A DNA stretch of 64,000 bases from Candidatus Ozemibacter sibiricus (GTDB lineage: Bacteria; Muiribacteriota; Ozemobacteria; Ozemobacterales; Ozemobacteraceae): positions 62,001 to 126,000 of the forward strand of contig QOQW01000004.1 in the NCBI GenBank assembly GCA_003327425.1. The letters run 5' to 3'. Shown piece after piece: positions 27,640 to 37,224 of this stretch (positions within the stretch are counted from its first letter, which is position 1; each line of letters begins with the position of its first letter). The notes under the pieces were generated by a model that worked only from the letters and a program-made list of their open reading frames with translations, made no database searches and was not told the origin of the DNA. A program made the position numbers and the translations under genes.

Positions 27640-28743
27640 ATGTCGAATCGCCCATCGGTCGTCTACAGCAACGTCTGGGAAGACCCCGAACTGAACCGGG
27701 GCAGTCTTCTGGTCAAGCCCGGTGATCACGTGCTGTCGATCACCTCGGGCGGCTGCAACTCCCTCTGTCTGTTGCTCGAGAACCCCGAGCGGGTCGTCTC
27801 GATCGACCTCAACCCCGCTCAGCTTGCCATGCTCGAGTTCAAGCGAGCCGCCATCATCGAGCTCGATCATGAAGACTTTCTGACCGCGCTGGGCACGCCG
27901 TTCCATGGCCAGCCTCTGCCGCCGGCGGCCACGCGGGTCGCCCTCTACCGCAAGATCAGACGCCACCTGCCGGCCTATGCCCAGGAATTCTGGGACGCGC
28001 ACCAGCCTCTCATCGAACAGGGCATCTTCCTGTGCGGCAAGGTCGAAGCCTTTTTCGCCTTGTACCGCCGCATTCTGAACTGGCTCTATGATGCCACGAG
28101 CCTCGAGCAGTTCTTCCGCCAACCCGATCTGGCCGCGCAGAAAGCCTATTATAAAGCGTTCCGCAAGAAGCGCTGGCGGTTCCTCAACAGCCTGCTGCTC
28201 AATCGCTTCGTACTCAGCCTGGTCAAAGGCGCGCACTCGTTCGCCCAGGTCGAAGACCCCGACCTCTCGCAGAACCTCAACCGCAAGATCGACCGCGCCA
28301 TGACGACCTTCTACAACCCGGACAACTACTTCGTGGCGCTGATGCTGCTCGGAGGGCACTTCTCGCGCCGGGCCATGTCGCCCTACCTGCTGGCCGAGAA
28401 TTTCCCCATCTTGAAACAGAACATCGGGCGTCTCGAGATCTTCCTGGGCACCGTCGGCGACTGCCTCAAGAAATGGGGCCCCCGCAGCTTCGACAAATTC
28501 AACCTGTCGAACATCTTCGAATGGATGGACCACGAGGTCTTCAACGGCGTCATCCGGGAGGTGCTCGCCCTCAGCCGGCCCGGCGCCCGCATGTGCTGGC
28601 GATATACCCTGGCCCGGCCGCGGCAGCTCGACGCCGAGAACACCCGCCGTCTCGTCGCCGAACCCGATCTGGCCGCCAGGCTGTTCGCGCAAGATCGCTC
28701 GTTCATCTACGAAAGCTTCCATGTCTACCACCTGGCGTCATGA
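27640..28743 (+). CDS. DUF3419 / BtaA-like aminocarboxypropyl transferase
   Basis: A 367-residue protein matching the DUF3419 family, which includes BtaA, the enzyme that moves a 3-amino-3-carboxypropyl group from S-adenosylmethionine to diacylglycerol in betaine lipid synthesis. The SAM-binding region is typical: VKPGDHVLSITSGGCNSLCL followed by PERVVSIDLNPAQLAMLEFK. Later matches are FFRQPDLAAQKAYYKAF, NPDNYFVALMLLGGHFSRRA and SNIFEWMDHEVF. No BtaB N-methyltransferase is adjacent, so the product may stop at the homoserine-type lipid or be another compound. The 43-base gap after the RND gene holds a ribosome site (CGGAGAAG), so it is probably in the same operon. Confidence 0.82.
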   Translation: MSNRPSVVYSNVWEDPELNRGSLLVKPGDHVLSITSGGCNSLCLLLENPERVVSIDLNPAQLAMLEFKRAAIIELDHEDFLTALGTPFHGQPLPPAATRVALYRKIRRHLPAYAQEFWDAHQPLIEQGIFLCGKVEAFFALYRRILNWLYDATSLEQFFRQPDLAAQKAYYKAFRKKRWRFLNSLLLNRFVLSLVKGAHSFAQVEDPDLSQNLNRKIDRAMTTFYNPDNYFVALMLLGGHFSRRAMSPYLLAENFPILKQNIGRLEIFLGTVGDCLKKWGPRSFDKFNLSNIFEWMDHEVFNGVIREVLALSRPGARMCWRYTLARPRQLDAENTRRLVAEPDLAARLFAQDRSFIYESFHVYHLAS

Positions 28744-32750: not shown

Positions 32751-32855
32751 CGTCTTCGAGGGACAAGATGCTCTCCTCTCGCCGGGTGCAATTCCAGGAT
32801 CGGCATGCGCCCTGGTCAGGGCCGCCAGCCGGTGGAACGGGCGATGGCTTTCTTG

Positions 32856-32861
32856 TATCAT
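32856..32861 (+). promoter_or_regulatory. Candidate -10 box (TATCAT), leaderless type
   Basis: TATCAT ends six bases before the ATG at 32868. A weak TGGAAC (32833) could be the -35 box with a 17-base spacer. No ribosome site is seen. Confidence 0.4.
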
Positions 32862-32867
32862 GAGGCT

Positions 32868-34226
32868 ATGAGCCGATTGCTGTCATACCTGGGTCATCTC
32901 GTGGAGGAGCACCTGCCCCAGTTGCTGCTCCTGCTGGAGGACTGCCTGGCCATCCCATCGTTCAGCGGCCAGGAGGCGGGGGTGGCCGACCTCCTGCTGG
33001 GGTTCTTCCGGCGGCACCACCTGCCGGCCGCGCGCACCCCGCGCGGCAGCGTGGTCGCGGTGCTGGCGCCGCCCGAGCTGTCGCCGGGCGGCCTGCCCGC
33101 CACCCTGCCCGAAGGGGAAGCCCGACAACGCCTCGACGCCCTGCTGACCGCCATTCGCGGCCGCCACCTGCCGTTGCTGGCGTTCAACGCGCACATGGAC
33201 GTCGTCGAACCCGGCGAAGGCACGGCCTGGGTCTACCCGCCGTTCGCCGCCACGGTACAGAACGACCGCGTCTACGGACGCGGCACCTGCGACATGAAAG
33301 GCGCCCTGGCCGCCATGGCCCAGGCCCTGGTTCTGGCCCACCAGGCCGCCGTCGAGCACCCGTTACAGCGGGCCGTCATGGCCTGCTTCGTGACCGAAGA
33401 GGAGGCCGGCGAAGGGCTGGCCTTCAAAGAGATTCTCCACGATCTGCAATGGCGACCCGATGCCGTCATCCTCGGCGAACCCTCCGAGATGCAGATCGCC
33501 CGCGGCCAGCGCGGCAAGCTCGAATTCTTCCTGCGGGCCCATGGCAAACGCGCTCACACCTCGGTTCCCGAAGTCGGAGAGAATGCCGCCTACAAGATCG
33601 CCCGTGCCATCCTGGCCGTCGAGGCGCTCGACCGCGGGGAATTCCGCACCGTCGGGCCCGACCCCGAGCGCATCCTCGAACGGTCCACCCTGGTCGCCAC
33701 CTCGTTCCGCACCATTCCCTTCACCAAATCGAGCGTTCCCGACATGGCCGAGGCGCATGTCACCGTGCGGCTGGCCAGAGGCGAGACCCTCGACAGCATC
33801 AAGCAGAAGCTGTTCGATCGAGGCGGCTGGCCCGAAGTCACCATCGACCCCGTGGTCTACCGCGGGAAATCCTATACCGGCCTGCCCGCCGAATGGCCGG
33901 CCTGCCACCCCGCCTGGGAGATCCCACGCCACCACCCGTTCTTCGCCTTCCTGCGCACCGCCGTCCGCGATGCCCTCGGCCGCGAGCCCTCCGACCGCAT
34001 CTGGCCCTTCTCGACCGACGGCGTCTACAGCGCCGGCCAGCTGGGCCTGCCCACCCTGGGCATCGGTCCCGGCCAGGAGGCGGTCGCCCACCTCGTCGAC
34101 GAGTTCGTCGAGATCGGCCACCTGCGCGAAGCCCTGGCGCTCTACGCCTACCTGCCCTTCGCCCCCGCCCCCGATGACCATCCGCGCTTCGAGGTCCGCT
34201 CTCCCACTGCCCCTGACGCTCGCTGA
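32868..34226 (+). CDS. M20-family metallopeptidase / deacylase (ArgE-DapE-like)
   Basis: A 452-residue zinc peptidase. M20 landmarks: LAFNAHMDVV (His109, Asp111), DRVYGRGTCDMKGALAAM (bridging Asp142), VTEEEAGEG (Glu177-Glu178), ILGEPSEMQIARGQRGKLEF, a dimerisation domain with HTSVPEVGENAAYK, and the last ligand in AVAHLVDEFV. Relatives remove acyl or aminoacyl groups (acetylornithine deacetylase, succinyl-diaminopimelate desuccinylase, YgeY-type). I cannot name the substrate. The C-terminal 20 residues are Pro-rich. Residues 63-100 form a slightly longer loop than usual between the first two strands. Start chosen by the -10 spacing. Confidence 0.88.
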   Translation: MSRLLSYLGHLVEEHLPQLLLLLEDCLAIPSFSGQEAGVADLLLGFFRRHHLPAARTPRGSVVAVLAPPELSPGGLPATLPEGEARQRLDALLTAIRGRHLPLLAFNAHMDVVEPGEGTAWVYPPFAATVQNDRVYGRGTCDMKGALAAMAQALVLAHQAAVEHPLQRAVMACFVTEEEAGEGLAFKEILHDLQWRPDAVILGEPSEMQIARGQRGKLEFFLRAHGKRAHTSVPEVGENAAYKIARAILAVEALDRGEFRTVGPDPERILERSTLVATSFRTIPFTKSSVPDMAEAHVTVRLARGETLDSIKQKLFDRGGWPEVTIDPVVYRGKSYTGLPAEWPACHPAWEIPRHHPFFAFLRTAVRDALGREPSDRIWPFSTDGVYSAGQLGLPTLGIGPGQEAVAHLVDEFVEIGHLREALALYAYLPFAPAPDDHPRFEVRSPTAPDAR

Positions 34227-34283: not shown

Positions 34284-34312
34284 TTGACGCCGCGTCCGCT
34301 CCTTCATAGACT
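34284..34312 (+). promoter_or_regulatory. Promoter of the carbamoyltransferase/radical SAM operon
   Basis: TTGACG (34284-34289), 17-base spacer, TAGACT (34307-34312), then GAAGGAG before the ATG at 34343. One of the best promoter matches in the window. Confidence 0.7.
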
Positions 34313-34342
34313 GGGATCATTCTTTTCGGAAGGAGCCTCGCC

Positions 34343-36073
34343 ATGGCCACCACCATCCTCGGCATCAATGCCGCCTATCACGAATCCGCCGTCTGCCTCC
34401 TGCGCGATGGGGTCATCCTGAACGCCGTCGAAGAGGAGCGCTTCAACCGGATCAAGCACGCCAAGCACGCCCGCGTCGACAATGCCGACGAGCTGCCCGA
34501 GCAGGCTCTGGAATGGTCGTTGCGCGCCGCCGGCCTCACCCCCGATCAGATCGATCATATCGGGTTCTCGTTCGACCCCGAAGAGCGCCTGCGCTGCAAC
34601 CGCAACCTCGGCGAGAAGGGCATCCCGCCTGGCGACTACGGCACCCCCGAAGGGGAAGAGACGTTCCATCGTTCCGTGTACAACGCCGCCGCCAAGCTCC
34701 GCCAGCGCTTTCCCAAGGCCCAGTTCCATTTCCTGCGCCACCACCTGTGCCACGCGGCCAGCACCTTCTACCCCTCGCGGCACGAACGGGCCGCCGTGCT
34801 GGCCATCGACGGCATCGGCGAGTTCACCACCACCTGGATGGGCATCGGCGACGGCCACACGCTCAAGCCCATCCACGAGATTTCCTACCCCCATTCCCTC
34901 GGGTTCGTCTGGGAAAAGATGTCGGAACACCTCGGCTTCGACGTCTACGGCGGGCCGGGCAAAGTGATGGGGTACGCCTGCCTGACCGATCCGGTCGGCG
35001 AGGCCAGCGGCATCGATTATGCCGAACGGTTCCGCCGGATCATCCAGCTCACCGACACCGGGTTCACCGTCGACAATTCCGTCATGCGCTTCCGCACCCG
35101 CGATTTCAGCGGGCTCGAACCGTTGTTCGGCCCGCGCCGCCCCAGCATCGTCGACCGCTACGAGGAGGCCAGCATCGCAGCCGGCCTGCAGACGGTGACC
35201 GAAGAGGTCTTCATCCACCTGGCTCGCCTCCTCTACCGCAAGACCGGCATGGAAGCCCTCTGCCTGGCCGGCGGCGTCGCCCTCAACTGCGTGGCCAACG
35301 CCCGCCTCCTGCGCGAGACGCCCTTCCGCGCCCTGCACGTGATGCCCGCCGCCAACGACGCCGGCACCGCCGTCGGCGCCGCCTGCCTGCTCTGGTGCCA
35401 GGTGCTCGGCAACCGGACCCGCCCTCGCCTCGACCACGCCTACCTCGGGCCCGAGTACAGCGAGACCGAGATCAAAGCCGCCCTCGACCAGGCCGGCCTC
35501 GCCGCCACCCGGCCCGACGACCTGCCCCGGGAGGTCGCCCGCCTGGTCTATGACGGCAAGATCGTCGCCTGGTTCCAGGGCCGTCTCGAGTTCGGCCCCC
35601 GCGCCCTCGGCCATCGCTCCATCCTGGGCGATCCGAGCCGGTTCGACATGCGCAGTCGGCTCAACCACAAGGTCAAGGAACGCGAGAGCTTCCGCCCCTT
35701 CGCGCCGAGCGTGCTGCCCGAGGATATCGGCCGCCACCTGCAGACGCCCGCCGATCTCGACGCCGCCGAATACATGCTGCTGGCCCTGCCGGTCGTCGAG
35801 CGGCGCGACATCCAGCGCATCCCGGCGGTGATCCAGGAGAACGGCACCACCGGCCACGCCACCGCCCGGCCGCATGTGGTGCGCCCCGCCGTCAACCCCC
35901 TCTACCACCGCCTGCTGCAGGAGATGAAAGCGATCTCCGGCCTCGGCATGATCCTGAACACCTCGTTCAACATCAGCGAACCGATCGTGGCCACCCCGGA
36001 ACACGCCATCAACTGCTTCCAGCGCTCCAAGATGGATGCACTGGCGATCGGCCCGTTCCTGGTGAAGCGATGA
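34343..36073 (+). CDS. Carbamoyltransferase (NodU/CmcH family)
   Basis: A 576-residue protein matching NodU/CmcH carbamoyltransferases in full length. N-terminal Kae1-like part: ILGINAAYHESAVCLLRDG, EERFNRIKHAKH, HFLRHHLCHAASTFYPS (metal and carbamoyl-adenylate binding histidines) and VLAIDGIGEFTTTWMG. C-terminal part: LCLAGGVALNCVANARLL, MPAANDAGTAVGAACL, FQGRLEFGPRALGHRSIL and LNTSFNISEPIV. The enzyme makes carbamoyl-adenylate from ATP and carbamoyl phosphate and transfers the carbamoyl group to a hydroxyl of a sugar, antibiotic or other metabolite. The stop overlaps the radical SAM gene by four bases, so the two act in one pathway. No polyketide or peptide synthetase is nearby. Confidence 0.92.
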   Translation: MATTILGINAAYHESAVCLLRDGVILNAVEEERFNRIKHAKHARVDNADELPEQALEWSLRAAGLTPDQIDHIGFSFDPEERLRCNRNLGEKGIPPGDYGTPEGEETFHRSVYNAAAKLRQRFPKAQFHFLRHHLCHAASTFYPSRHERAAVLAIDGIGEFTTTWMGIGDGHTLKPIHEISYPHSLGFVWEKMSEHLGFDVYGGPGKVMGYACLTDPVGEASGIDYAERFRRIIQLTDTGFTVDNSVMRFRTRDFSGLEPLFGPRRPSIVDRYEEASIAAGLQTVTEEVFIHLARLLYRKTGMEALCLAGGVALNCVANARLLRETPFRALHVMPAANDAGTAVGAACLLWCQVLGNRTRPRLDHAYLGPEYSETEIKAALDQAGLAATRPDDLPREVARLVYDGKIVAWFQGRLEFGPRALGHRSILGDPSRFDMRSRLNHKVKERESFRPFAPSVLPEDIGRHLQTPADLDAAEYMLLALPVVERRDIQRIPAVIQENGTTGHATARPHVVRPAVNPLYHRLLQEMKAISGLGMILNTSFNISEPIVATPEHAINCFQRSKMDALAIGPFLVKR

Positions 36074-37224
36074 CCGGCGGCCCGCCGGCCGACCGAGCCC
36101 CGACCGCCCCCACCGACCTCAGCAGGCCAGCGGAGTCGCGGCCCCACCCGACGCCGCCCGAGCCCCGCCTCGCCCTGGGCGGCAGGTCCGGCCCTGGCGC
36201 CCTGGCCCCCGTGGCCGGCGCGGCCGATGATCTTCGCCGGCCGGCCTGGCTGGAGCGGGTTCCGACCAATATCGACGGCCAGCCGACGCACCGTCTGATC
36301 TTCATCTTCCGCGCCCCCGGCTGCACCTATGCCCGGCGTCCTGCCGGCGGCTGCACCATGTGCGGCTTCACCCCTCTCACCGGGCGCGCCCGGACCATCA
36401 CCCCCGCCGATCTGATCGCGCAGTTCGATCACGTCTTCGGCGCCAATGCCAAGGGCGCCTCCCCTCCCACGCCGCCGCTGCCGACCGATCTCCTGACCGA
36501 TCTGGGCGAAGTCGACCTGTACAACTCCGGCTCCTTCCTGGCTGACGAGGAGATGCCCCCGCCGGTGCGGGCCCACATCTTCCGCCGTCTGGCGGGCCGC
36601 GGCCTCCGCCGGGTGGTCGTCGAATCGCGCCCGGAGTTCGTCACCCCCGTCGCCCTGCGCGAGGCGGCAGCGTTACCGCCTGGCGTGCTCGACGTCGGCA
36701 TCGGGCTGGAAAGCGCGGACGATCACATCCGCGAAGTCCTGATCCGGAAAGGGTTCGATCGACCCGCCTTCGAACGGGCGGCGGGCGTGCTGGCCGAGAC
36801 CGGGCTCGGCCTGCTGGTCAACATCCTCCTCAAGCCGCCCGGGGTGCTCGACGACCGCGCGGCCCTCGCCGATGCGCTGGCCACCGGCCAGTATGTGGCC
36901 GCCCTGGCGCGTCGGCTGCGTCTGCGGGCCCGTCTCGCCCTGCAGCCCGTGTTCGTCGCCCCCGGCACCGCTCTCGAAGCCGATTTCCTCGCCGGTCGGT
37001 ACCAGCCCCCCAGTCTCTGGACCGTCGTCGAAGCCGTGCGCGGGTTGCATGGCATCCTGGAGACCACGGTCGGTCTCAGCGACGAAGGGCTCGAACCCCA
37101 CCGCAGCCCCGCCGGGTGCGGCCGCTGCGATGACGCCCTGCGGGCCGCTCTGCGCGACTACAACCGGACGCGCTGTCTGGCGGCCTTCGCCGACCTGGCC
37201 TGCTCCTGCCGCGCCAGCCCGTAG
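36070..37224 (+). CDS. Radical SAM protein of the archaeosine-synthase-subunit (RaSEA, TIGR01210)-like type
   Basis: A 384-residue protein with a 60-residue Pro-rich N-terminus. The cluster-binding cysteines are in APGCTYARRPAGGCTMCGF, a CX9CX2C spacing instead of the usual CX3CX2C; this long spacing is a trait of the TIGR01210 family, which includes archaeosine synthase beta (RaSEA). Other matches are DLYNSGSFLADEEMPP, VVVESRPEFV, DVGIGLESADDHIREVLIRK and LVNILLKPPG. A further Cys pair occurs near the C-terminus (GCGRCDDAL). Archaeosine is not expected in bacteria, so the substrate is unknown. It is translationally coupled to the carbamoyltransferase. Confidence 0.8.
   Translation: MTGGPPADRAPTAPTDLSRPAESRPHPTPPEPRLALGGRSGPGALAPVAGAADDLRRPAWLERVPTNIDGQPTHRLIFIFRAPGCTYARRPAGGCTMCGFTPLTGRARTITPADLIAQFDHVFGANAKGASPPTPPLPTDLLTDLGEVDLYNSGSFLADEEMPPPVRAHIFRRLAGRGLRRVVVESRPEFVTPVALREAAALPPGVLDVGIGLESADDHIREVLIRKGFDRPAFERAAGVLAETGLGLLVNILLKPPGVLDDRAALADALATGQYVAALARRLRLRARLALQPVFVAPGTALEADFLAGRYQPPSLWTVVEAVRGLHGILETTVGLSDEGLEPHRSPAGCGRCDDALRAALRDYNRTRCLAAFADLACSCRASP

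Follow-up and report, generated by a model that had tools for sequence, protein, structure and literature searches.

The carbamoyltransferase gene and the radical SAM gene that adjoin each other in the window, i.e., the whole stretch of 64,000 nucleotides of Candidatus Ozemibacter sibiricus DNA that was analysed, form a functional unit. We put at about one half the probability that their products, designated here CT and RS, constitute a previously undescribed accessory two-enzyme module that modifies one acceptor shared by both. No description of the pair was found in the literature. The CT gene (plus strand, 34343..36073) encodes a NodU/CmcH/TobZ-type carbamoyltransferase of 576 aa, and the RS gene (plus strand, 36070..37224) encodes a radical SAM protein of 384 aa that resembles the TIGR01210/RaSEA family of NCBIfam, below the cut-off of that family. 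The coordinates, strand and lengths of the two genes in the original prediction were exact, as was the overlap of four bases that it described: the ATGA at 36070..36073 (plus strand), read from the sequence, is common to the stop of CT and the start of RS, is indicative of translational coupling, and is near-identical in most relatives.

The original prediction also placed a strong promoter in front of the pair. A sigma-70-like promoter, TTGACG-N17-TAGACT (34284..34312, plus strand; 9/12 matches), and a Shine-Dalgarno-like AAGGAG (34330..34335, plus strand, read directly from the sequence) precede CT. The number of promoter-like sites in the scan (2) was not in excess of that in shuffled sequences (1.2 ± 1.1). 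In the congener G001, the region upstream of the orthologue has kept both hexamers at a distance of 17 bp although most of the remaining sequence has diverged, which makes the promoter credible. The M20 peptidase gene located upstream (32805-34226) was considered as a further member of the unit and rejected, because it is a neighbour of the pair only here and in G001, and not elsewhere. At a greater distance in the window (27640-28743), next to genes of an MMPL transporter and a LolA-like protein, lies a gene for a DUF3419 protein (PF11899), which we take to be BtaA-like, i.e., involved in aminocarboxypropyl transfer of the betaine-lipid type.

CT has both domains of its family, Carbam_trans_N (PF02543; 184.3 bits, Pfam cut-off 24) and Carbam_trans_C (PF16861; 186.6 bits, cut-off 27), and its best solved relatives are the structures of TobZ, of a decarbamoylnovobiocin carbamoyltransferase (NovN-type) and of GdmN, with which it also agrees in length. 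Residues His13, Lys445 and Ser541 of CT, invariant in an alignment of 13 CTs, align with His14, Lys443 and Ser530 of TobZ, the last of which could be pinpointed by the mutant entry 3vf4, which has an A there in the alignment. We take these three residues to represent the TobZ active site, and the numbering of the PDB chain to equal that of the paper plus six. TobZ-type enzymes form a carbamoyl-adenylate and then transfer the carbamoyl group, and the targets that they tailor are usually antibiotics and glycans. CT differs from TobZ, NovN, GdmN and NodU in that it belongs to a separate clade, whose members have a coupled radical SAM gene in every case in which the neighbourhood is visible. From NodU itself it is far removed, scoring 113.7 bits against the equivalog NF041651 with a curated cut-off of 1000.

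RS contains the predicted CX9CX2C motif of a [4Fe-4S] cluster as Cys85, Cys95 and Cys98 (36322..36363, plus strand), and further cysteines near its C-terminus, Cys350-X2-Cys353 and Cys378-X-Cys380 (37117..37209, plus strand), which may form a second metal site. The C-terminal cysteines are kept in the RS proteins that we call type A, to which RS of the window belongs, and in several RaSEA-like proteins found elsewhere. They are absent from type-B RS proteins, which carry CX6CX2C or CX7CX2C instead of CX9CX2C. Since both the cysteine spacing and the C-terminal cysteines differ, RS proteins of the two types may not perform the same reaction. The AlphaFold2 model of RS, built from three sequences, was of moderate quality (pLDDT 68, pTM 0.70), with very low confidence in the low-complexity region of the first ~50 residues. 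The closest solved folds in a Foldseek search were Elp3 proteins, although with such a model the ranks are merely indicative.

To follow the pair in relatives, we used 40 genomes of Ca. Riflebacteria, the phylum of the Ozemobacteraceae MAG that contains the window; nearly all genomes of the analysis were drafts, and many are probably MAGs. In this phylum, each of the 13 best CT matches was followed by a TIGR01210-like gene, of type A in six genomes (G000, G001, G003, G004, G007 and G010) and of type B in seven (G005, G009, G012, G016, G017, G023 and G037). With three genomes of a second phylum added, the number of genomes in which CT and an RS-family protein are neighbours is 16. The conserved co-occurrence that was proposed as a check was thus found, and the two genes were not separate in relatives. 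A search of genome contigs with a single-protein query had matched only two congeners. In G002, RS is located at the start of a contig and the CT side is beyond view, and in G008, a CT of the paired kind is truncated by the contig end. A frameshift divides RS of G003 into two overlapping frames (L030 6885-7851), as a result of either assembly error or decay. In 12/13 Riflebacteria pairs, the RS start is at −23 to +3 nt relative to the stop of CT, often within ATGA or GTGA; the one pair outside this count is that of G001, in which the RS start is not settled. The recurrence of this spacing indicates that the overlap is not due to chance, and the spacing persists across RS sequences that are only ~24% identical.

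The distribution of the pair is patchy, as 10/24 members of the family show no sign of it. Genes flanking the pair are common only to congeners and close relatives and are otherwise different; neither a constant third gene nor conserved biosynthetic neighbours were found when the pair loci were compared. Additionally, we considered whether RS accompanies carbamoyltransferases in general. This was rejected, as no RS homologue is located near 10 paralogous CT loci of the phylum or 5 CT loci from other phyla. Some of the paralogous CT genes in the phylum (L080 4462-6701 and L082 4176-6420) are followed by a gene for a protein of 136-142 aa and by no radical SAM gene, which is another conserved arrangement.

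All 16 coupled CTs fall into a single clade (97/96; 96% of bootstrap trees). In a profile comparison of 382 genomes, with a model that was itself built from coupled CTs, the full-length coupled CTs reached 828-1025 bits, compared with 561 bits for the best uncoupled CT. In contrast, the RS proteins of the pairs occupy two places in the tree of their family: those of type A group with Cys-rich RaSEA-like proteins, and those of type B are sister to a CX4CX2C group found elsewhere. A single clade of all pair RS proteins was not firmly rejected (AU p = 0.077, or 0.27 with fewer rows). In place of the distinct radical SAM clade that had been anticipated, one CT clade is combined with two RS subtypes. 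Within each type, the branching orders of CT and RS are nearly identical, as expected if both genes were inherited jointly. The exception is G511, in which a type-A RS accompanies a CT that is sister to type-B CTs, which points to either a change of partner inside the family or a very fast divergence of the two types.

These observations also bear on whether the linkage reflects co-regulation only, with CT and RS catalysing separate reactions that are needed simultaneously. A common substrate of the two enzymes is not directly evidenced, which such a reading would accommodate, but it explains poorly the near-invariant overlap of stop and start across divergent lineages and the matching branching orders of the two genes in each type. 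We regard it as quite improbable.

Outside Riflebacteria, the sampling comprised ~1,100 genomes. Among 343 sampled genomes of the phylum of G311, which, as inferred from gene content such as a DUF1501-like protein, is probably Planctomycetota, three more pairs were found. Two of them (G526 and G558) are of type B, with genes overlapping by ~20 and ~17 nt, and the third (G511) is of type A, with CT and RS ~300 nt apart. No pair was present in two other phyla sampled with 24 and 397 genomes, respectively, and the RS-like matches there were weak (at most 119 bits); the single such match in the 397-genome sample had no CT within the examined stretch. In ~340 genomes of other phyla, no CT reached the coupled level of at least 828 bits, as measured with the model built from the coupled set, and the few RS-like proteins were in other contexts. 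The pair is thus rare, yet it crosses phyla. Carriage by phages or plasmids was rejected, as no convincing match was obtained: viral contigs gave one remote radical SAM match and none for type B, a search of phages with the solo-type RaSEA-like protein of L038 gave no match, and plasmids gave only clusters of Streptomyces.

These clusters, on plasmids pFRL5 (L045 7121-20876) and pFRL3 (L046 8185-20690), include a RaSEA-like radical SAM gene (173 bits in the case of pFRL5) together with P450, SHMT, GT9, carbamoyltransferase, GDSL esterase and heptose-nucleotide genes, and they resemble an uncharacterised natural-product cluster. By uniting a RaSEA-like radical SAM gene with a carbamoyltransferase, and because TobZ-type enzymes usually act on antibiotics and glycans, they lend something to the reading of the CT–RS pair as a cassette that tailors a secondary metabolite or a surface glycan, the remaining genes of which would lie elsewhere in each genome. 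However, biosynthetic neighbours are not conserved around the pair, and the Streptomyces plasmid CT falls outside the clade of coupled CTs, so that this reading, while worth keeping in mind, is unlikely. RaSEA-like genes also occur in other surroundings. In L124 (7656-11872), a gene for a CX4CX2C protein is located directly 3' of a gene pair resembling that of the glycine cleavage P-protein, and its relatives in L041, L169, L170 and L172 are in other contexts. In close Ozemobacteraceae relatives (L043 3045-7150 and L044 3225-7342), a third RaSEA-like subfamily is flanked by two larger genes resembling B12-type radical SAM genes (472-486 aa).

The only NCBIfam family matched by RS is TIGR01210, 'archaeosine biosynthesis radical SAM protein RaSEA', with which it shares the sequence family, the radical SAM fold and the three-cysteine motif. 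RS of the window scores 163.9 bits and does not reach the cut-off of 212.15, its orthologue in G007 exceeds it (217.5 bits), and type-B RS proteins score 54-60 bits. The original prediction held that a member of this family would not be expected in bacteria. Contrary to that, RaSEA-like proteins recur in bacteria outside the pair, and so the family is not limited to archaea; two of these proteins, in L123 (740-1744; 230 bits) and L038 (8823-10019; 216 bits), are above the NCBI cut-off. As bacterial proteins of L123, L038 and G007 exceed the cut-off, it alone does not identify archaeosine synthases. The genome of L038 lacks PF17884, which we take to be the ArcS domain, and the RaSEA label on the L038 and L123 proteins is therefore probably misleading.

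In Euryarchaea, RaSEA has ArcS as its partner, and ArcS-RaSEA of T. kodakarensis is a transferase that works as a complex with a RaSEA (PMC11298593). The CT–RS pair is similar in being a two-part unit of a transferase and a RaSEA-type radical SAM enzyme, but the partner is a carbamoyltransferase, not a lysine transferase, and RS is below the family cut-off. A link to archaeosine did not hold: PF17884 was present in 0/40 genomes of the phylum and in 3/14 controls, all three of them archaeal (euryarchaeal), a distribution that fits the presumed identity of this domain. On account of the missing domain and the sub-threshold score, archaeosine synthesis by RS was rejected. Even though TIGR01210 is its sole family and the G007 orthologue passes the cut-off, it is hardly conceivable that RS is a genuine archaeosine synthase subunit which a bacterium has acquired for making archaeosine in tRNA, with CT as an accidental neighbour, given also that the genome has only one TGT-like locus and that CT is kept as a neighbour in 16 genomes.

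A profile of RS matched only one solved structure in the PDB, that of queuine lyase (QueL, 6p78; PDB chain of 251 aa), by a weak and partial match (E = 3e-8, 136/321 profile positions) covering the barrel core. We know of no carbamoyltransferase partner of QueL. For some RS-family members MnmL (YtqA) is the next-best NCBIfam match, but RS scores far below both the Elp3 and MnmL families and lacks the GNAT domain of Elp3. As RaSEA, MnmL, Elp3 and queuine lyase act on tRNA bases or queuine, and as the genome has a TGT-like gene, the pair might modify a tRNA base or a 7-deazapurine, such as a queuosine derivative, with RS trimming the side chain and CT carbamoylating it. This seems rather improbable in view of the resemblance of CT to enzymes of small natural products, the lack of a tRNA-binding Pfam domain in both proteins, and the patchy occurrence of the pair.

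In the module that we favour, CT would make carbamoyl-adenylate from carbamoyl phosphate and ATP, and an acceptor hydroxyl or amine would then receive the carbamoyl group. RS, as an enzyme of the Elp3/RaSEA/QueL type, would form a 5'-deoxyadenosyl radical and remove hydrogen from this acceptor, too, at a carbon that is most likely adjacent to nitrogen. Both RaSEA and queuine lyase cleave a C-N bond adjacent to the radical site, as MnmL perhaps does; by analogy with such distant relatives only (20-30% identity), hydrogen abstraction by RS might perhaps lead to C-N bond cleavage or trimming. The two enzymes would act in either order, perhaps as a complex. Since no third gene accompanies the pair, general metabolism is the most likely source of the acceptor, which would be a small molecule, a sugar or a lipid precursor. 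Of the small pathway of modification and carbamoylation proposed originally, the conservation of the pair as a unit was observed directly, as were its coupling, joint inheritance, family membership and intact motifs; the pathway itself follows soundly from it, and that the acceptor is shared we infer, together with the kind of acceptor and the C-N chemistry, as RS might have a substrate that has nothing to do with the one carbamoylated by CT. A variant in which CT and RS form one complex and the carbamoyl group is itself the unit on which the radical chemistry of RS works, resulting in an undescribed nucleoside, cofactor or metabolite, would be analogous to the loading of lysine by ArcS for RaSEA and of acetyl by the GNAT domain of Elp3. 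It is quite improbable.

With the CT–RS pair, little-studied bacteria provide a conserved two-gene unit that is open to testing and that combines a RaSEA-like radical enzyme with a carbamoyltransferase in the absence of ArcS. The RaSEA family extends beyond archaeosine synthesis, which makes automatic 'RaSEA' labels on bacterial proteins above the cut-off unsafe, and the pair may represent a route to a new carbamoyl/radical modification.
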